Shown here: positions 10,370 through 20,546 of the stretch, in pieces
How the letters are laid out: the number at the start of each line of letters is the position of its first letter
How positions within the stretch are numbered: the stretch's first letter is position 1
Assembly: GCF_029433105.1 (NCBI RefSeq)
Contig: NZ_JARNTW010000007.1
Location: 62,001 to 126,000, forward strand
From: Runella sp. MFBS21
GTDB lineage: Bacteria > Bacteroidota > Bacteroidia > Cytophagales > Spirosomataceae
DNA length: 64,000 nucleotides
Direction: 5' to 3'
The notes under the pieces: model-generated
Seen by the model: only the letters and a program-made list of their open reading frames with translations
Databases searched by the model: none
Told to the model about the DNA's origin: nothing
Translations under genes and position numbers: made by a program

Positions 10370-10454
10370 AGAGAGATGGCAGAGTGGTCGAATGCGGCGG
10401 TCTTGAAAACCGTTGACTGTAACAGGTCCGGGGGTTCGAATCCCTCTCTCTCTG
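10370..10454 (+). tRNA. tRNA-Ser (anticodon TGA)
   Basis: Class II tRNA of 85 nt. Acceptor stem AGAGAGA (10370-10376) pairs with TCTCTCT (10447-10453), discriminator G at 10454. The anticodon loop CTTGAAA gives anticodon TGA at 10404-10406. A long variable arm lies around 10415-10430. The T-arm is GGGGG-TTCGAAT-CCCTC. No CCA is encoded (GCA follows), normal for Bacteroidota. It has its own promoter and terminator. An AT-rich foreign-looking segment starts directly behind it. Confidence 0.96.
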
Positions 10455-10459
10455 CAACT

Positions 10460-10491
10460 GGCTGTAAATCAACGATTTACAGCCTTTTTTT
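10460..10491 (+). terminator. Terminator of tRNA-Ser
   Basis: Perfect 11-bp stem GGCTGTAAATC / GATTTACAGCC with a 3-nt loop, followed by T7 at 10485-10491. Confidence 0.92.
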
Positions 10492-10548
10492 GTTCTAAAC
10501 CTTTGATTTCCTTGTTAGAATAGTTTCAGTTAATGACCTATCTATCAT

Positions 10549-10635
10549 ATGAAACACTTTGTATATCTGCTTGCCTTACTCTTTGTTTCTTTAATAAATG
10601 CCCAAGTCTGCACTCAAAATACTTTGACAGCTTAA
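10549..10635 (+). pseudogene. 28-codon signal-peptide stub, possible gene remnant
   Basis: ATG to TAA reads MKHFVYLLALLFVSLINAQ followed by nine residues. The first part is a well-formed signal peptide with an ...NAQ cleavage site of the kind common in Bacteroidota secreted proteins, but the mature part is only a few residues. The likeliest reading is the 5' end of a secreted-protein gene cut off when the AT-rich segment behind tRNA-Ser arrived. A genuine short secreted peptide is also possible. Confidence 0.4.
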
Positions 10636-10713
10636 TTGTTATTTCTCCTTAGAGAATGCAGGTCATCAACAACGAGTTTGGAAATTGATCAGGTTCCAAT
10701 AACTTATAACAAT

Positions 10714-13700
10714 ATGAAAACTGTTACGAAGGAAAAGGTAGTTGAATTTGGTGCGAATTTAGCCCAAATTACAATATGGGTAGGGGTAGCATATGCATTG
10801 GTAAACCCTGCGATATTGCCTTTTGCACTGCCTGTATTTCTTAGTAAAGAGGTACTGGGTACAACTGTAGGCGCACTTACGGGAAACAAATTTGGGGAAT
10901 TGGTTGCTAAGTTGACAAAAGTGTTTCAAGGTAAAAACCAAGAATTAGATAAAATTATAAAGAAGGCACTTAAAAATACATTTCCAGCCTTGGAAAGAAA
11001 TCTTCTTGAACATTATAATGAATCTAACGATGAGTCTCAAAGTGCAATTTCTAGTTTAATTGCCCACTATATCAATATTGATTTTATAAATTTTGATATA
11101 ACCCAACAAACTAATTATGAACTTGTCAAAAATTTCGCCAATTCATTTGAATATCTACTAGCTACTCCATTCGAAGATTGGAAAGATAAGTATATTAAAG
11201 AAAGTTCTTTGCCAGAAAATTTTGAAAAAGTTTTTGTCGAAAGATTTATTGTAGTTTTTGTTGATAAGTTGCACGACCAACTTACAAATGAAGATCATAA
11301 AAAAGCTTTTGTTGAATATACACTATCCTTACTTGAATTAAGTATAGAGCTGAATAGAAAGAACCAAGAATTGCTTTTTCAAGCTCACGAAATATTATCC
11401 ACACTTAAATCAAATACAGACGTACTAACTGGATATACTAAAGATATCTTGAACTTAAATGAATTGTTATTACAACTTATTCCTTCTGTCAGTAGACAAA
11501 TAAGTGATATAAGGACGGAGATTCTAAGTGAAATAAATAAACAGAATCAACCGGATTTATTAGTGCCTTCGATAGATACATATAAGAGAGATGCCTATGA
11601 TTTTCGTTATAAAGCTCAATACACTACCTTTTTAGGAAGGGAGCTGGAAATAGATTCTCTCAGAAAATTTGCTTTAACTAATAAAGCTGATAAAAATTTT
11701 TATTGGTGGTATTTAACTGGAAAGGGTGGCTCAGGCAAAAGTAGAATAGCGTATGAATTATGTATTCAACTTAAATTGTGGGATTTTTATGCAGGATTTA
11801 TAGAAAAAAGTTTGCTCGAAAATACTCAACTTTGGCATAAATGGATGCCAGTTAGAAATACTTTTATTGTTATTGATTATGCAAATGAAAAAAGTGATTT
11901 AATTGTTGAATTATTAAAAATATTAGAAAGTCGCCAAAGCCTGTTTAAGTATAGTGTTAGGGTTTTATTAATAGACCGTGAACTAACTAAAGAGATAATA
12001 GAGAAATTCTCTATTGAAATTGAAGTTGAAAATTCCTCATATACTAATGATTTAAGCCCAATTGTTTTATCTGATGCTAGTGATGACATACTTTGGGGAA
12101 TAATACAAGAGGTGCATCTAAAAAAAGAGAAAAATATTGCCTATGAAAAAAAAGAATTGTTGATGTATTTATATAATATTGATAATTTAAAGAGACCGTT
12201 GTTCGCTTTTTTAGCAGGTGTTGCTTTAGTAGAAGGGGATGATATAAGAGGTTGGAATAAAAGTGAATTGCTTGGAAAATTAATTGTACGCGAAGAAAAT
12301 AAGGTATGGAATTTAAATAAGGTTGAGAAACCGATTTACGAGAAGCATAAAACTTTACTTGTAATAGCAACTTTGCTTAGAGGAGTGTCAAATGAATTCA
12401 TAGCTCATTTGGATTCGAATAACTATGTGTGGTTTAATCCTTCAATCCAAATAGATAATGATATTTATAATAGAATATCTTCATCTTTACTTATTGGTGA
12501 CAAAATACATTATTTAGGGTTAGAACCCGACATACTTGGAGAGTATTTTGTCATAAGGCATTTTTCAAAAATGATTGAAGGGTCAAGTAACGGTAAGGAT
12601 AACATTTTAGCTTTGCTAAGTGAATTATGGAGCCATAAACCAGATAATTTTGTGTTTATGCTTTCGATGTTACTACAAGATTTTGATGATTGTACTGAGA
12701 CTAATTTATTAGTATATAAAATACTTTTGAATACAAAACCAATTAATAGTTTAAATTTACAATCTTGGATTGCGTGGAGTATATATAGAAATTTTATATG
12801 CAACCCTTTGTTTTTGCCTAAAATATCTATTTCTGAGAAAGAGAAATTTTTTTTAGAAATTCAAACTAGCGTAGGCGATTTAGATATGGAAGGCGTATGT
12901 ATTTGGTTGAGCACTATTACGATGAACTTTACTAGCTATTTTGGACAACAAAAAGAAACAAATAAACTAATTCGTTATTTAGAAATTACACATAGTTATA
13001 CTCTGAAGTATCCTCACAGTCAACTAATAATGGCTCAATACGTTAATGCGTTAAGAAATGGGATATTGGACGGTTTAGTGAATTTTAAAAATGATCAAAT
13101 AAATAAATACTTTAATGGTTTAGAGGTAATAATAGCTGCATTTTCTCAAAATGAGTATATAAATTATATTTACTCATTAGTTTTATGCGATATAATTCGA
13201 CAGCTATCAAAGAGTTTAAATTTTATAGCATCTCATTTCGAATTATGCAATTATGCTCTTGATAAAGCAAGGGGACTTTGTGAATTATATCCCGAAAATC
13301 ACAATTTTCATGCCCAATTAAATGGAATTGTATGTGCCATTGCCGTAGGTTATGCAAAGGGTGGGAGGTATGATCGGGCGAATCAATTTAGAGAGGAATC
13401 TGCTAGTATAAAGGAGAAATTTATATCTAATTATCAAATAGTATATGATAATTATTTGATGAATTTAGATTTAGCAAGGCATGGTAAAAATCTTTTAGAA
13501 ACAGAGAGTCAATTACTGGTTTATTATGATAGCGCAGAAGAAGTATGGGAAATGTTTAGAAAAGAAAGGGATATAGCACTTTACTTTGCTAAAACAAACT
13601 GGGAGTTTGTGTGTTGTAATGATATATTCGATGGTGTTCGGATTTCAGATTCAAATATACAAAGAATGAAAAAGAATTTACGTGAAATTGAAAAAGATTT

Positions 13701-13785
13701 TGGAAATGATTGGGAGTTTATTAGGTACATAATTGCGGGGGAGAGCGATTTTTTACAAAGTAATTCTAGTAGCCAACTTAGCTAA
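10714..13785 (+). CDS. Large P-loop NTPase of STAND-like layout, candidate defence protein
   Basis: 1023 residues from the ATG at 10714; a frame beginning at TTG 10636 is open but gives an implausible N terminus. Residues about 10-55 hold hydrophobic segments (ITIWVGVAYALV, ILPFALPVFL), then a helical region rich in Lys/Glu up to about 305. The NTPase core starts after FLGRELEIDSLRKF. Walker A is GKGGSGKS (336-343, Lys342); Walker B is TFIVIDY with Asp388. A helical winged-helix-like region follows, then a C-terminal half of about 450 residues that looks like alpha-helical repeats. An N-terminal effector-like region, central NTPase and helical sensor is the STAND/NACHT/Avs layout. No nuclease, TIR or protease motif was recognised. 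Codon use is much more AT-rich than neighbours (many ATA, AAT, TTA), suggesting recent transfer. No family could be named; a defence role is inference. Confidence 0.72.
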   Translation: MKTVTKEKVVEFGANLAQITIWVGVAYALVNPAILPFALPVFLSKEVLGTTVGALTGNKFGELVAKLTKVFQGKNQELDKIIKKALKNTFPALERNLLEHYNESNDESQSAISSLIAHYINIDFINFDITQQTNYELVKNFANSFEYLLATPFEDWKDKYIKESSLPENFEKVFVERFIVVFVDKLHDQLTNEDHKKAFVEYTLSLLELSIELNRKNQELLFQAHEILSTLKSNTDVLTGYTKDILNLNELLLQLIPSVSRQISDIRTEILSEINKQNQPDLLVPSIDTYKRDAYDFRYKAQYTTFLGRELEIDSLRKFALTNKADKNFYWWYLTGKGGSGKSRIAYELCIQLKLWDFYAGFIEKSLLENTQLWHKWMPVRNTFIVIDYANEKSDLIVELLKILESRQSLFKYSVRVLLIDRELTKEIIEKFSIEIEVENSSYTNDLSPIVLSDASDDILWGIIQEVHLKKEKNIAYEKKELLMYLYNIDNLKRPLFAFLAGVALVEGDDIRGWNKSELLGKLIVREENKVWNLNKVEKPIYEKHKTLLVIATLLRGVSNEFIAHLDSNNYVWFNPSIQIDNDIYNRISSSLLIGDKIHYLGLEPDILGEYFVIRHFSKMIEGSSNGKDNILALLSELWSHKPDNFVFMLSMLLQDFDDCTETNLLVYKILLNTKPINSLNLQSWIAWSIYRNFICNPLFLPKISISEKEKFFLEIQTSVGDLDMEGVCIWLSTITMNFTSYFGQQKETNKLIRYLEITHSYTLKYPHSQLIMAQYVNALRNGILDGLVNFKNDQINKYFNGLEVIIAAFSQNEYINYIYSLVLCDIIRQLSKSLNFIASHFELCNYALDKARGLCELYPENHNFHAQLNGIVCAIAVGYAKGGRYDRANQFREESASIKEKFISNYQIVYDNYLMNLDLARHGKNLLETESQLLVYYDSAEEVWEMFRKERDIALYFAKTNWEFVCCNDIFDGVRISDSNIQRMKKNLREIEKDFGNDWEFIRYIIAGESDFLQSNSSSQLS

Positions 13786-13863
13786 TATAATAGCCCCATT
13801 GATTGGATAGTTTAAAATTAGTAAAATTTATGTTGTATTCAGACAATGGTGTTTTTTGATGAC

Positions 13864-14190
13864 TTAATTTTGTTTCATTAAGAATCCACTAAAATCATTT
13901 TGCCTTTCATAAATACCTGAACAGTCTTTGGCGTTAAGCCCGTCACGTTCCTGTAAAAGTCTAAAACACTCAATTCCTGCTCTATCACGGTCGAGGAAGC
14001 AGTTTACTTTTTCAAACTGACAAAGGAACTCAAGAGCCTTCTTTCGATTAGCGGTTGAATTAAGTACCACCGTTGAAATACGCGGCTTTTCCAGTCCAAA
14101 CCATACCAAGGCCGATAAGAAGTCAAAAAAGCCTTCAAAAACCGCTACTGTTGAACGGTTGCCCGTGTCGAAGGTGGGCTTTAATACTTG
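13864..14190 (-). pseudogene. Toprim-domain primase fragment (DUF3991/Toprim_2-like), decayed
   Basis: The minus-strand frame is open from 14190 to the stop at 13864 (108 codons) and is preceded in frame by a TAA at 14193-14191. The encoded fragment reads STVAVFEGFFDFLSALVWFG, with the Toprim Glu in FEGFFDFLS, and later VNCFLDRDRAGIECF, with the DxD-type acidic pair of Toprim domains. These are the hallmarks of plasmid and ICE-borne DUF3991/Toprim primase-like proteins, normally 300 residues or more. The zinc-binding N-terminal part is missing. The only ATG in frame (14109) lies inside the domain, so the gene is broken. It marks a former mobile element around the AT-rich NTPase gene. Confidence 0.68.
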
Positions 14191-14362
14191 TTACGGGTTG
14201 CAGATTTTCTTGCTAATAGAATAAGGGAGTATTTGTTTTGTCAGGTAATTGATAAGGGGAAGATGAGAAATAGGAAAGTTTATATCAATTTGTTGAGGTT
14301 TTGCTTAACTTAAGGGTGAGGCCACCGTATTTTATCACATACGAAGATAAAGGCAAAGATCA

Positions 14363-14830
14363 TCATAGTACAGCGGGCTTAACAAATATGTATTTATCCA
14401 AATACCCTTTTACTACCTTGTCATTTTGAATTTTGCTTACGTATACATAAGCAGAGTCATTGGTTGTATCAGGAAATTCAAATTTCATTTCTATCTGTAG
14501 TCCTCGGTCGGTGAGCAAATAAAGATGATTTGAACCTCCAACTTTATCCGTTTTGGCAACGCGATCTTTGAAAATAATCTTATTGTCTTTTTGGAAATAC
14601 AAACTATCTAAGCCTCGGGGAGGCTGTGTCATTGTCCACCCCGACCAAGTACGTATGAATAATTGATTGGCATCACTGACCCTTATTTCATTTCCTTTTT
14701 CATCAACTTCTGCTACTTTTTTCCAATAGGCATAAGCGAAAGCATCATAGGCATCGGAATCAATCATATCCCTTTTTTTACAAGAAAAAATAGAAATCAA
14801 TAGGTATACATATAAGAATGTATTTTTCAT
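14363..14830 (-). CDS. Hypothetical lipoprotein
   Basis: 155 residues. Lipoprotein signal peptide with lipobox SIFSC (Cys17) followed by KKRD. The mature part is polar with alternating strands (NQLFIRTWSGWTM, NHLYLLTDRGLQIEMKFEF), compatible with a small beta-rich fold. No family recognised. It stands alone between the broken Toprim fragment and the SusD gene on the same strand, with 274 nt to the SusD stop, so it may form its own transcript. Whether it belongs to the transferred segment is unclear; its codon use looks closer to the host genes. Confidence 0.6.
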   Translation of the reverse strand: MKNTFLYVYLLISIFSCKKRDMIDSDAYDAFAYAYWKKVAEVDEKGNEIRVSDANQLFIRTWSGWTMTQPPRGLDSLYFQKDNKIIFKDRVAKTDKVGGSNHLYLLTDRGLQIEMKFEFPDTTNDSAYVYVSKIQNDKVVKGYLDKYIFVKPAVL

Positions 14831-15104: not shown

Positions 15105-16883
15105 CTACCAACCAGGGTTTTGGGTAAGTTTAGGATTGGTAATAATATCGCCTGTTGGAATGGGGTAATAGTAGTTTTTGTCGGTCCATTTACGAGGAAT
15201 GTTGTTTAGCCATGTTAGTTCGCCCGAAGTTTCACCTGAGATAAGCTGAGAGTTGGGCTTACCAGCTATCATGGGTGACACTTCTACATAAGTCACTCCT
15301 GATACTTTGGTAGGAGCGGTTGTTTTATAAAAAGCCACATCCAAAATTCCGTCTTCATTTAAGTCCATTGGTGTATTGAGGGCCGGAACATACATACCGT
15401 TCCATTCCATTTGCATGAGCTCTCCTCTTTTCCATCTTACGATATCATCGAAACGAAAACCTTCCAAACACAACTCAATACCCCTTTCGCGGCGTACTTC
15501 GAGTAGCACAGGGTCAGAGATGGCAGGGAAGTACTTTGACTGTAAATACGTATCGACCTTGGTAGGTTTGGTGGTCAAGCCGCCTGTGATACCCGCTCTT
15601 TTCCGCAAAGCACCGATAGAAAGCGCCCAATCAGCATCGGTAAGTGTACCAAGTTCGGCCTTGGCTTCGGCATAGTTGAGAAGTACTTCACCATAGCGAA
15701 AAATAGAAATAGAATTGATATTCAAATCGCGGGTGTCATAATACATATCATCCAAAGTCCACTTGATGGGCATATAGCCTGTATAAGTGTATGAAAACAA
15801 AGGTGGCGAAGGAACCAACTGCCCACCGCTCGTGCGCTTATAATCACCTACTCGAATGGTCTGCTGTAGGCGTCGATCACGACCTTTTACCTCATCTTTG
15901 AAAAGCATGGTCTTATAGGCAGGATTGTCGGTAAAGGGCGTACCGTCGATGTTCAAATAGGTATTGATAAAAGTCCGAATAAAACTCGCTTTGTCGCCAT
16001 AAGTACCACTGGTCCAGTACCAATTGGCGTCGTTTAGGTTATTTAGAGCCAAATCGCACACCGCCGAAAGCATCACTTCGGTGGTGACGGGGGCGGGATT
16101 AATAAATACTTGTCGGTAAGACTTGTCGGTACCCGAACCGTCAAAAAGTTTATATCCGCTTTCGTCTATTACTTTTTTGGCAGCTTCAGCAGCTTGATTT
16201 AAGAAATTAGAAGAAGTGGCTTGCAGTCCTAAATTGGTATGGTATTTTCGGAAAGTTCCTTCATATAAGCATACCCGTGATTTGAAGGCATAGGCTACGT
16301 ATTTTGTAACCAAGCTTCGAGTAGGCTCGTTGGCCGCGGTGATATTTTGGCAGGCATAATCCAAGTCTGCTACTACCGAATCCATCACCAAGGTACGTGG
16401 GTCGCGTCCTTTGTAAAGCAATTCTGCATCTGATACATCGAGTGCTTTGCCGTACCAAGGCACATCACCGAAGCGTTTTACTTTATCAAAATAAAACCAT
16501 GCTCTAAAAAAACGAGCAATACCGAGGTAATTTTTACGAACCGCGAGGGGGACTTTAGGGTCGTTGCAGTTTTGGATAAAATAGTTGATATTCCGCAAAT
16601 CCGACCAACTCCAGCCTGTACTTACTTGGGGGCTATAGTTGCCTTCTGTAATAAAAGGGGGCGATTCGCGGCGTGCAAGATAGTCAGACATGGCATCGGC
16701 ACGGTGGAGATTTTTGCCATTAAACATCGTATAAAACGAGTTGGTGTACAATACAAGTCCGCTTTCACTGCCAAAAATAGGCCCTTTAGAGGTGGTAGCT
16801 TCGGGTAGCTCTTCTAAATTGCAGCTTACCAAGAAGACCGCAGCTAGTAAAACAAGGATATATTTTAGTTTCATTTGCTTCAT
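15105..16883 (-). CDS. SusD/RagB-family nutrient-binding lipoprotein
   Basis: 592 residues. Lipoprotein signal ending LVSC (Cys21), then the N-terminal SusD start NLEELPEATTSKG. The TPR-like helical core is visible in NINYFIQNC, YLGIARFFRAWFYFDKVKRFGDVPWYG and SRVCLYEGTFRKYH. C-terminal elements are SIFRYGEVLLNYAEAKAELG, LEVRRERGIELCLEGFRFDDIVRWKRGE and a final YPIPTGDIITNPKLTQNPGW, all diagnostic for SusD. It sits on the cell surface as a lid over the SusC barrel and binds oligosaccharide or another nutrient. It follows susC by 10 nt in one operon. No glycoside hydrolase gene is adjacent, so the substrate cannot be deduced. Confidence 0.95.
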   Translation of the reverse strand: MKQMKLKYILVLLAAVFLVSCNLEELPEATTSKGPIFGSESGLVLYTNSFYTMFNGKNLHRADAMSDYLARRESPPFITEGNYSPQVSTGWSWSDLRNINYFIQNCNDPKVPLAVRKNYLGIARFFRAWFYFDKVKRFGDVPWYGKALDVSDAELLYKGRDPRTLVMDSVVADLDYACQNITAANEPTRSLVTKYVAYAFKSRVCLYEGTFRKYHTNLGLQATSSNFLNQAAEAAKKVIDESGYKLFDGSGTDKSYRQVFINPAPVTTEVMLSAVCDLALNNLNDANWYWTSGTYGDKASFIRTFINTYLNIDGTPFTDNPAYKTMLFKDEVKGRDRRLQQTIRVGDYKRTSGGQLVPSPPLFSYTYTGYMPIKWTLDDMYYDTRDLNINSISIFRYGEVLLNYAEAKAELGTLTDADWALSIGALRKRAGITGGLTTKPTKVDTYLQSKYFPAISDPVLLEVRRERGIELCLEGFRFDDIVRWKRGELMQMEWNGMYVPALNTPMDLNEDGILDVAFYKTTAPTKVSGVTYVEVSPMIAGKPNSQLISGETSGELTWLNNIPRKWTDKNYYYPIPTGDIITNPKLTQNPGW

Positions 16884-16893
16884 TGTTTAGTAG

Positions 16894-19800
16894 TTAGAAT
16901 GTAACAGACAAGCCCCCCGTCACACTTTTCATCATGGGGTAGTTGTAAGCATCGCCAGAGTTGCCACCAGGATTGAATACTTGGTCAGAGGCCACGGCGC
17001 TTTCTACGTCAAAATCACGGGTACGTTTGTGAAGTGGCGATAGTGTCCAGATGTTTTCGGCAGAGATGAAAACCCGCGCAGCCGAAGCTCCAATTTTAGA
17101 AGCTACCTTACGTGGAATATTGTACCCAAGTTGGATGTTTTTTAGCCTCATATAAGCCACATTTTGAAGATAACGAGTCTGAGGAGCACTCAAAGTACCA
17201 TTGGCATTACTTGCTATCCGTGACACATATCTTGGGAAATAAGCATCGGGATTGTCTTCGGTCCAAATATTTCCCAATTGGCTTTTGGGCACATCTCCAT
17301 AAGGGCGGTTGTATTGTCCCCAAAATAAGCTTGCTTCTCTACTCGGATACCAATTTTGTTTGCCTACCCCTTGAAGGAAGGCCGAAAAGAAGAAATTGTT
17401 CCAATCCGCCCCAAGCATGATTCCGTAGGTATAGCGTGGAGTAGAGTTTCCGATAATAGAACGGTCACCTGGGTTTTCAAGGCGGTCGGTACCTGGGGTA
17501 ATTTGGCCATCTCCATTGACATCTCTAAATTTAATATCTCCCGGAAACCATAGTCCATTGGATGCCGTACGGAATAAGTTTTGGCTGGCGCTATTTTTGA
17601 CATCATCGGCAGATTTGAAAAAGCCTTCGGTAGTGTAGCCCCAAATCTCACCCAATCGCTGACCTTCATAATAGTCACTCAACAGTTTTTGAGGATTGTT
17701 GTATTTCGTAATGACGGCATTATAGTCGGCCAAAGTAAGTCGGATGTCAAAATTGAAGGGTTTAGAAGAAACGTTGAACTTATCTCTATACGAAAGCATG
17801 GTTTCCCAGCCTTTGGTTTCTAGGTCGGCATAATTTCCCTTAGGAGCAGTAGCTCCAAAAACCGCTGGTAAGGTAAGCCCGACCGTAAACATATCGGTTG
17901 TAGTACGGATATAGGCATCAGCCACAAAAGTCAAACGATTGGAGAGCATTGATAAGTCAATACCGATGTTTTTGGTGGTGGCAGTTTCCCAAGTAAGTCC
18001 TTCAGGCAATACCGTTGGGTTTCGGGTTTGTTGGGGACGTTGGCCATTGAGTACCATGGACGATTGCGAAATCGAAAACTGCTCTAAATAGGCATAAGAG
18101 CCAATATTTCCGTTTCCTAAAGAACCATAAGACGCTCTCAACTTCAGATCTGAAATGACTTGCTCAGGCACTCTCCAAAACGATTCTTTGGATAGACGCC
18201 ACCCCACTGAGTAGGAAGGAAAGAAAGCAAAGCGCTGATTGGCAGGGAATTTAGACGAGCCGTCGTAACGACCGTTGAGCTCTAGCAAATAGCGGTCTTT
18301 AAAAGAATAGTTGAGCCGCGCAAAACCTCCTTGGATTTTCCAACGCTCCCAGCCCCCCGATGTAGTAATGGCTTGGCCGAGTGCAAGGTTAATATCGTTG
18401 GCATCTTCAAAAATAAGCCCATTTCGCTGCGCTGATAGCCTCTTATAGTTAGATTGCTCATAGTTATATCCTACCAATGCCTTTAAATAATGGTTTTCTT
18501 TGAAAGTATTTTCATACTCTGTGTAGAAGTTGGTAGTCATATAGGTAGTTTCACGATATACATCAGTGAGGGAGTTTGTAGTAGTTCCTACATATGCGAT
18601 AGTGCCAGGCTTTACGCTATAGGGAACTGGTACGGATTTGGTTCGGTCGTTGTTGTCAGTATTTTGAATGGTAAAGTCTCCTTTCACTCGTAGTTTGTCA
18701 TTAAAAAACTGTGCCGCAAATCCAGTTGTATTTCTGAAGACTTTTTTGTGGTTATCAATACCGTTTTTACCATAATAAAAATCACCGATGCTGTAGGCGG
18801 CCGAGAAAGTGATCGTACCATCTGGATTGAGTAGAGGTGATAGGGGGTGCCCTTCGTCGGCGATATTGCGCCATATACCCCCACCTTCTCCTACATTGAG
18901 GGGATTGTGATATTTCATGTCAGAATACTGCGACATATTGTTGATTTTCAACCAAGGATAAAGCTGAATAGAACCTTTGCCCGTAAAGTTAAACATCTGA
19001 TAGTCGTCAGAGTTGTAGCGAAATAGCCCTTCTTGTCCAAAATACCGCCCCGTGATTAGGTAGCTTGCTTTATCAGTACTACCCGAAATGCTCAGATTGT
19101 GTTCGTTGGAGCTGTTGCGGTCTTTGTACAAAATACCATAATAGTCTGTGCTACCATAATAAACATACTCGCCAGTGACGGGGTCGATTTCGACTTCGGG
19201 CAAGCCGCCAATTTCTGACCGTCTTTTGAGTTCGTTGAGATAGGCTTGCGAAAATTTGAGTGTTTTGTTGGCGTTTTGAGGAAAAGTGCCTCCAAAATTG
19301 ACAAAAGATTCGGCAAACATCGACGCCCATGTGTAGCCGTCAGTGACTAAATCGGGGCGTGCAATGGGGTTTTTGAGGGAGTAGTTGGTAGAGTAAGTAA
19401 CGCTCGTTTTGCCAGCGGTCGGGTTTTTGGTCGTAATCAATACCACCCCAAATACCCCCCTTGCTCCGTAGATAGAAGCCGATGCCGCGTCTTTTAGAAG
19501 CGTCACGCTCGCAATATCGTTGGGATTGAGCAAACTAGGATCTCCTTCCACGTTGTCGATAAGAACAAGCGCGTTTCCACCTTGCCCAATGGACGTAGTC
19601 CCCCGAATGTTGAAGCTAGGTGCTTGATTGGGCTTACCGTCCCCCATTTTGATATTAAGGTTAGGCAATACCCCCTGAAGCCCTTGGTTGACGTTGGTCA
19701 GAGGGCGATTGTCAAATACATCGCTTGTGATCATATCTACCGCTCCTGTCAGATTGGCTTTTTTCTGAACACCGTACCCTACCACAACTACTTCGTTGAG

Positions 19801-20445
19801 GGTTTTGAGGTCAGATTTGAGAGATACATTAAAAATGGTCTGACTTCCCACCACAATCTCTTGGGCACTATAGCCTACGTAGCTAAAGATAAGCACTGCT
19901 TTTTCGTCGGGCACCGACAATGTAAACTCTCCGTTGGGATTGGTAGTCACGCCACGTTGCGTGCCTTTTACTACTACGCTTACACCAGGAAGGCCTTCTC
20001 CTTTTTCGTCCACAACTCGCCCTCTTATGTTTTGGTCAAAGACTTTGGTCGGAACCAGACTTCGTTTTTCAAGAGACTGTACCTCTGCCTTGGTGATGAT
20101 GATATACTCTCCCGAAGCCTCATAACTTAAATTGAGCGGTTTGAGTAGTTTATCGAGTACCATAGCTAAGGGCTGATTGATAGCCGAAACCGTTACTTTT
20201 TCGTTTTTGGCCACGAGCTGTGGTAGGTAGGTAAATTTGACTTTAGCCGATTTTTCGACCATACCCAAAGCCACTTTGAGTGGTTTATTATCAATTTGTA
20301 GACTGATATTACGTAGAAGAGCTTCTTGGGCTAAACTCTCATGGGCTATGGCCAAGCTACTGAGCATGACACTTACGAGGAATTGTAAACAAGTGATTCG
20401 CATAACTAGAAGCAACAGTTTGCGCTTTTTTGTGAAACTTTCCAT
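16894..20445 (-). CDS. SusC/RagA-family TonB-linked outer-membrane transporter with STN domain
   Basis: 1183 residues from the ATG at 20445, chosen because it gives MESFTKKRK and a signal sequence; 30 extra upstream codons are unconvincing. After the signal comes an STN (secretin/TonB N-terminal) domain at about 45-115 (SLQIDNKPLKVALGMVEKSAKVKFTYLP). It is followed by a carboxypeptidase-like domain (IRGRVVDEKGEGLPGVSVVVKGT), a plug with VVVGYGVQKKANLTGAV and DNVEGDPSLLNPNDIASVTLLKDAASASIYGARG spread over residues about 225-330, and the barrel. It imports the ligand captured by SusD. The STN domain normally contacts a FecR anti-sigma factor, and the FecR and ECF sigma genes lie directly upstream, so this is a self-regulated cell-surface signalling system. 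Confidence 0.95.
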   Translation of the reverse strand: MESFTKKRKLLLLVMRITCLQFLVSVMLSSLAIAHESLAQEALLRNISLQIDNKPLKVALGMVEKSAKVKFTYLPQLVAKNEKVTVSAINQPLAMVLDKLLKPLNLSYEASGEYIIITKAEVQSLEKRSLVPTKVFDQNIRGRVVDEKGEGLPGVSVVVKGTQRGVTTNPNGEFTLSVPDEKAVLIFSYVGYSAQEIVVGSQTIFNVSLKSDLKTLNEVVVVGYGVQKKANLTGAVDMITSDVFDNRPLTNVNQGLQGVLPNLNIKMGDGKPNQAPSFNIRGTTSIGQGGNALVLIDNVEGDPSLLNPNDIASVTLLKDAASASIYGARGVFGVVLITTKNPTAGKTSVTYSTNYSLKNPIARPDLVTDGYTWASMFAESFVNFGGTFPQNANKTLKFSQAYLNELKRRSEIGGLPEVEIDPVTGEYVYYGSTDYYGILYKDRNSSNEHNLSISGSTDKASYLITGRYFGQEGLFRYNSDDYQMFNFTGKGSIQLYPWLKINNMSQYSDMKYHNPLNVGEGGGIWRNIADEGHPLSPLLNPDGTITFSAAYSIGDFYYGKNGIDNHKKVFRNTTGFAAQFFNDKLRVKGDFTIQNTDNNDRTKSVPVPYSVKPGTIAYVGTTTNSLTDVYRETTYMTTNFYTEYENTFKENHYLKALVGYNYEQSNYKRLSAQRNGLIFEDANDINLALGQAITTSGGWERWKIQGGFARLNYSFKDRYLLELNGRYDGSSKFPANQRFAFFPSYSVGWRLSKESFWRVPEQVISDLKLRASYGSLGNGNIGSYAYLEQFSISQSSMVLNGQRPQQTRNPTVLPEGLTWETATTKNIGIDLSMLSNRLTFVADAYIRTTTDMFTVGLTLPAVFGATAPKGNYADLETKGWETMLSYRDKFNVSSKPFNFDIRLTLADYNAVITKYNNPQKLLSDYYEGQRLGEIWGYTTEGFFKSADDVKNSASQNLFRTASNGLWFPGDIKFRDVNGDGQITPGTDRLENPGDRSIIGNSTPRYTYGIMLGADWNNFFFSAFLQGVGKQNWYPSREASLFWGQYNRPYGDVPKSQLGNIWTEDNPDAYFPRYVSRIASNANGTLSAPQTRYLQNVAYMRLKNIQLGYNIPRKVASKIGASAARVFISAENIWTLSPLHKRTRDFDVESAVASDQVFNPGGNSGDAYNYPMMKSVTGGLSVTF

Positions 20446-20546
20446 AAATTTGGATTGGTTTAAGTTCAATTTTTTGGACAAAAACTCCCACCAGCACCCG
20501 ATTTTTCGGGTATTTGCCGCAAACAAATAAAGCAAGGGAGCTAAAA

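Follow-up and report, generated by a model that had tools for sequence, protein, structure and literature searches.

The protein described here (P0001, hereafter the query) is encoded by the open reading frame (ORF) at 10714-13785 of a 64,000-nt stretch, the window, of contig NZ_JARNTW010000007.1 from Runella sp. MFBS21, whose genome comprises 7.88 Mb in 72 contigs. The query is almost certainly a STAND receptor and quite likely a one-protein immune sensor of that class, in which an all-helical N-terminal domain would serve as the output. Its assignment to immunity, which is considered probable, is based on the domain layout, the conserved NTPase residues, N-termini that are swapped among relatives and include known antiphage effectors, variable C-terminal repeats, a patchy presence and a location in a hotspot. 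The domains of the query are arranged as follows:

10714-11610, plus strand: N-terminal domain (residues 1-299), all-helical in the predicted models, hydropathy peak at residues 25-43; putative effector or adaptor
11611-12033, plus strand: P-loop NTPase domain (residues ~300-440) with Walker A Lys342, Walker B Asp388, Arg416 and Arg422
12082-12309, plus strand: helical lid (residues ~457-532) in the predicted model, with the RPL motif Arg494, Pro495, Leu496
12340-12513, plus strand: winged-helix domain (residues ~543-600) in the predicted model, helices 543-588 and beta hairpin 591-600
12529-13761, plus strand: alpha-solenoid of helix pairs (residues ~606-1016) in the predicted model; putative sensor

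The winged helix is named from the order of the elements and from the alignment to NLRC4 and Apaf-1, and the family motif LEPDILGE (603-610) stands at the start of the solenoid. An initial annotation of this DNA had described a 1023-residue STAND-type NTPase with the Walker A motif GKGGSGKS (Lys342) and a Walker B Asp388. Both motifs are present, and Gly339, Gly341, Lys342 and Asp388 are invariant in all 39 aligned family members. The STAND assignment is likewise borne out by the predicted model and its Foldseek and VIA-align matches. The top VIA-align match is NLRC4, aligned over residues 271-695 of the model, and Apaf-1 is aligned over residues 281-674. The same annotation had asked whether a housekeeping AAA+ fold fits better; NLRC4 and Apaf-1 cover more of the model, at higher Z, than AAA+ chains do, and an ORC-, Cdc6- or RFC-like housekeeping ATPase is extremely improbable. 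The top Foldseek match is SAMD9 (832 columns, E 1.9e-9), but with a TM score of 0.27 and a root-mean-square deviation of 17.5; the fold matches listed also include EfAvs5 and the AVAST5 filament. The features of sequence and predicted structure expected of a STAND protein are found, namely a P-loop with the Walker Lys and Asp, a lid followed by a winged helix, C-terminal repeats and variable N-termini among relatives. Among Pfam families, PF25199 (nSTAND_NTPase5) and PF13191 (AAA_16) match the core best, in the query as in several relatives. The query remains under the curated cut-offs of both (15.8 vs 34 bits and 15.2 vs 32.6 bits, respectively), and the relative P0004, with 30.2 bits against PF25199, is also under the 34-bit cut-off. 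Judged by sequence, the query is likely related to nSTAND_NTPase5 yet beyond the range of that model. Profile A3 searched against PDB sequences at E 10 gave nine chance-like matches (designed coiled coils, TPR and others) and no STAND protein, and a literature search found no paper naming PF25199 or nSTAND5.

Several known systems share this architecture. The Avs/AVAST proteins, e.g. Avs5, have the same succession of N-terminal effector, central STAND NTPase and C-terminal repeat sensor (PMC12931631), whereas the N-terminus of the query is all-helical without a recognised enzyme fold. In the comparison with Avs models proposed initially, no PADLOC model, those of Avs1-Avs5 included, matched the query at E 10. 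The order of NTPase, lid, winged helix and C-terminal superstructure is also that of bNACHT proteins and of the animal NLRs NLRC4, NOD2 and NLRP3. NACHT is not among the four Pfam families listed for the query at E 10; a very remote relation is still compatible with this result because few matches above 0.1 pass the HMMER filters. The SAMD9 proteins, in which a STAND-like NTPase is followed by TPR, are antiviral in animals and carry a glycine in place of the Walker A lysine (PMC5445408). In contrast, Lys342 of the query is present and invariant in its family, and neither AlbA, SIR2-like nor OB-fold domains are among the Pfam matches of the query at E 10. Unlike Apaf-1 and the plant NB-ARC receptors NRC1 and NRC2, the query has no death-fold or coiled-coil Pfam match. 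Apaf-1 and the plant NB-ARC receptors end in WD40 or LRR repeats, whereas the query ends in an alpha-solenoid. The sequence tests made place the query outside the Avs, NACHT and SAMD9 proteins.

The family was collected from genome_contigs by means of two family motifs, which matched 423 stretches; a relative was encoded in 104 of these and 80 were kept, all 80 being matched by the core profile, some only partially. L010 (the same gene as L039) and L069 and L076 (taken as near-copies) were excluded before counting, and P0002 was left out of the N-terminal tallies and the tree. By title, the hosts belong to Bacteroidota, Pseudomonadota, Planctomycetota, Actinomycetota, Bacillota-type bacteria and others. 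Pfam was run on 71 of the 76 N-terminal parts of at least 50 residues (L044, L048, L050, L082 and L083 omitted) and identified SMEK (3), DUF676/hydrolase (3), SEFIR (2), trypsin (1) and kinase (1) domains; at least 45 of the 71 had no match. PADLOC models were compared at E 0.01 with 39 family members (10 database proteins and 29 of the 80 loci; best 25 of 37 families considered). Ten relatives picked for their N-termini matched parts of known systems within their first 250 residues: the Aga restriction endonuclease (four, SMEK-labelled), SAVED/CBASS-type HNH effectors (two), bSEFIR, Avs1b and LmuA (two). The Avs1b match, in L074, covers residues 24-182 only. Other matches in the 39 members were mad8 in five (best 5e-4), a TPR model (1e-11), PtuA (3e-6), PbeC (1e-4), LeoBC and Csm4; the absence of PADLOC matches in the core applies to the query and the ten selected proteins, as the positions of the other matches were not looked up. 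The proposed N-terminal effector finds a counterpart in relatives carrying known antiphage effector domains.

The exchange of N-termini was followed on a quick core tree of 84 rows (core of at least 250 residues), 25 of them labelled; the HNH labels of L073, L080 and L108 and the SMEK, hydrolase, trypsin and kinase assignments were made partly by eye. The eight N-terminal labels need 8 changes on this tree, one above the minimum possible, so that N-termini were replaced at least seven times. Considered singly, SMEK requires three or more changes and HNH two on starred branches; at 98, L049 (SMEK) is the sister of L053 (HNH). The SMEK N-terminus may be an old state. In one hydrolase-type relative, from Methylobacter tundripaludum (L090, 7269-8384), the frame stops after 372 residues and similarity continues beyond. 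The C-termini also vary: among the best 25 of 99 Pfam families found by scanning 53 of the 71 C-terminal parts, TPR_1 occurs in 12 of the 53, LRR_5 in four and Sel1 in two. Variable N-termini and C-terminal repeats correspond to the tripartite STAND layout set out in PMC12931631, PMC12169576 and PMC10907252.

The N-terminal domain of the query (residues 1-299) is common to P0003, P0004, P0005, L039, L040 and L058 and also to P0014, and is weakly matched in L041, L092 and P0006; a search for N-terminal relatives returned P0004 itself, P0014 and P0015. Set against the other labels, the seven members of this type group together at 98, with the unlabelled L041 and P0006 adjoining them, and the three members with a title come from Persicitalea and from metagenome-assembled genomes of Spirosoma and Dyadobacter. 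The domain is all-helical in both predicted models and reaches a pLDDT of 51.5 when folded alone. Among the four Pfam families listed for the query at E 10 there is no recognised catalytic, DNA-binding output, death-fold or coiled-coil domain. NNH2 (NACHT N-terminal helical domain 2) is unlisted for the query and weak in P0006 (E 0.018, 15.1 of 27 bits). The top hydropathy over 19 residues reaches 1.87 for the query and 2.01 for P0003 but 1.02-1.53 for the other five members of the type; in the wider family it exceeds 1.6 in 16 of 73 N-terminal parts. N-terminal types mostly follow clades, which makes an immune role slightly less likely. Hydropathy above 1.6 is found in two of the seven members of the query's type. 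The membrane role foreseen initially may apply to the branch closest to the query, rather than being an established trait of the domain.

The N-terminus could otherwise be an adaptor recruiting a separate effector, following the EAD principle; PMC8195603 describes effector-associated adaptor domains in systems of this kind. The all-helical fold without a recognised catalytic domain and the low hydropathy in five of the seven members suit such an adaptor. On the other hand, an all-against-all comparison of the neighbours in the window and seven loci, to which the search was confined rather than extended to the rest of the genome, found no common partner gene besides SusC-, SusD-, FecR- and sigma-like genes. 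These genes lie beside the STAND gene in the window (15105-20535), in L058 (736-7682) and in L043 (11598-16800), an adjacency that is probably due to chance because the nearest genome, G008, has the flanking block without the STAND gene. An adaptor is rather unlikely, and the balance leans somewhat towards an N-terminus that is itself the killer; that it kills by membrane action through its hydrophobic and amphipathic helices is conceivable, though short of probable.

The survey of homologue neighbourhoods proposed in the initial annotation did not reveal defence islands. PADLOC models (E 1e-10) were applied to ORFs, called by length alone, within 4.5 kb of 19 of the 80 relatives, those on long contigs (121 ORFs), and to 19 control regions of the same contigs (136 ORFs). 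The best 25 of 35 target families include RmrA (2), capP (2), LmuA, CARF6, a 1TM effector and mad3 (1 each); the best 25 of 43 control families include mad3 (3), mad8 (2) and RdrB, SspA, DndA, PD-T4-6, mad6 and MkoA (1 each). No enrichment of defence genes was found among the families listed. With few loci and broad models, the comparison neither supports nor excludes a defence role.

The gene lies within a variable slot behind a tRNA, where the following features were found:

10370-10455, plus strand: tRNA-Ser (TGA), final 22 nt at 10434-10455
10460-10484, plus strand: hairpin and T run following the tRNA, terminator-like and similar in relatives; left edge of the variable slot
10495-14327, no strand: variable slot of 3,833 bases, by comparison with G008
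10549-10635, plus strand: 28-codon ORF between terminator and STAND gene, whose translation resembles by eye a signal peptide without a body
10714-13785, plus strand: STAND NTPase gene, 1023 residues, ATG start, open without internal stop
13867-14109, minus strand: C-terminal relic of a CHC2/Toprim primase, similarity traceable by eye to ~14185

The STAND gene, the sole ORF of at least 100 residues inside the slot, could also start at an in-frame TTG upstream of the ATG (10636), giving a product of 1049 residues. From its sequence, the 28-codon ORF is probably a gene remnant, perhaps what an insertion left of a truncated gene. The AT-rich codon use noted initially was confirmed. GC (0.304) and third-position GC (GC3, 0.23) are the lowest among the 40 ATG ORFs of at least 150 residues in the window, the remaining 39 having 0.430 +/- 0.034 and 0.400 +/- 0.039, respectively. 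The codon-bias distance is 0.411 vs 0.215 +/- 0.051 for 14 other ORFs of at least 400 residues, from a reference that itself contains the other compared window ORFs, and is exceeded by the adjoining 155-residue ORF at 14363-14830 (0.437).

The STAND gene is an accessory gene at a tRNA hotspot with variable content behind the tRNA, as the initial annotation had proposed. Of 13 genomes of the genus, 12 match the tRNA-Ser and the gene to its left over a long stretch, and G002 (83% complete) in short pieces only. Nine loci of eight relatives were read (L119-L121 and L123-L128; G002, G005 and G007 left out; 330 nt only for G012). In G008, which is 94% identical, similarity ends at the tRNA end and is followed by an apparent prophage (L119, 3546-19001), in which a recombinase-type gene (Arm-DNA-bind_5, E 0.00098, 20 of 22.6 bits) precedes genes that appear structural by eye. 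A second G008 contig (L120, 15609-15670) carries a repeat of the tRNA's final 22 nt and of the terminator, which would mark the other end of the prophage. Behind this repeat lie 1.68 kb of other genes before window-like sequence resumes from 14328, so that the slot measures 3,833 bases in the window and 1.68 kb in G008. A 293-residue primase gene lies close behind the tRNA in G003, G004 and G010 (behind a second tRNA copy in G010), with two nearby genes that by eye look like tyrosine recombinases, and Pfam assigns CHC2 and Toprim domains to the G003 primase. The relic in the window, reported initially as a broken Toprim primase, corresponds to the C-terminal part of this intact primase, with 61.5-62.8% identity over 78-79 positions among the three (62% over 79 for one intact copy). 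The tRNA-Ser is likely an attachment site for the genus. No second tRNA 3'-end repeat (at most 3 mismatches) was found downstream in the window, and the combination of an integrase (ORFs of at least 100 residues) with a flanking direct repeat (at most 3 mismatches) was not found at the slot; the unit therefore no longer has an attachment end of its own, if it ever had one. In G011, genes assigned by Pfam to HsdS, HsdM and HsdR (L123, 6435-13201) lie 3.6 to 10.4 kb behind the same tRNA-Ser, and those intervening genes that G009 shares may be ancestral. In G001, a 760-residue protein without Pfam match at 0.001 is encoded behind the tRNA-Ser (L126, 2505-4787).

The presence of the gene is patchy. 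Homologues at the same locus in all related genomes, initially held to speak against a horizontally acquired sensor, did not turn up: the 12 other genomes of the genus that were searched gave no match. At 0.001, only the source genome and G029 matched among 59 genomes (own included); the G029 protein match is the same as in Persicitalea jodogahamensis (NZ_BMXF01000001.1, Spirosomataceae). Among 390 genomes of the order, searched with alignment A3 at E 1e-20, the own genome alone was found, a lower bound because at most two candidates per genome were scored in the rows listed. A database protein, P0002, from a 71,329-bp contig is identical to the query to about residue 552 and then has a different short tail, not found in the window or the collected loci; it may be a variant produced by an insertion, or a join made in assembly.

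The hotspot with its adjoining element relic and the AT-richness of the gene would also suit a mobile-element gene that served its element (superinfection exclusion, stability) and was stranded after the element decayed. One of 42 IMG/VR viral-contig stretches encodes a relative, L150 (4452-6308), which lies downstream of a gene that by eye resembles a phage or satellite primase-helicase. However, at E 1e-5 none of 50,697 phage records matched, a single one of 72,556 plasmid records did so, over just 13% of the query, and the STAND frame is fully open. Such an origin is unlikely and does not contradict an immune role. A MalT-like transcriptional or metabolic STAND regulator, sensing a nutrient or signal and carried in the hotspot by chance, is less likely still: no DNA-binding output domain is recognised in the query, the HNH, SEFIR, protease and hydrolase N-termini of some relatives suit toxicity better than transcription, G008 retains the flanking SusC/SusD block without the STAND gene, and the presence is very patchy.

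As an immune sensor, the query would be kept shut at rest, its winged helix and C-terminal alpha-solenoid closing the P-loop domain with ADP inside. A ligand from the invader, with a phage protein as the likeliest candidate, would bind the solenoid and open the protein, ADP would be exchanged for ATP, and the NTPase domains would form an oligomer. This would gather and activate the all-helical N-terminal domains, and the infected cell would be killed or arrested. We infer the ligand, the nucleotide cycle, the oligomerisation and the cell arrest; the chemistry of the N-terminus is the least certain part of the proposal.

More tentatively, and on balance doubtful, the nSTAND5-like core may found a class of antiphage sensors largely absent from PADLOC 2023, present in several phyla and joined to eight or more types of N-terminus. 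The branch of this class in the Cytophagales would carry an undescribed all-helical pore or membrane death domain, in principle like killing by the plant resistosome or of the MLKL type. If true, the family would represent a branch of NLR-like sensors that catalogues hardly cover, in which many ready-made effectors are combined with a single core. A group of Cytophagales would have an immune receptor encoded by one gene in a defined hotspot, and the query would offer a testable candidate for a helical membrane-type effector within a bacterial STAND protein.

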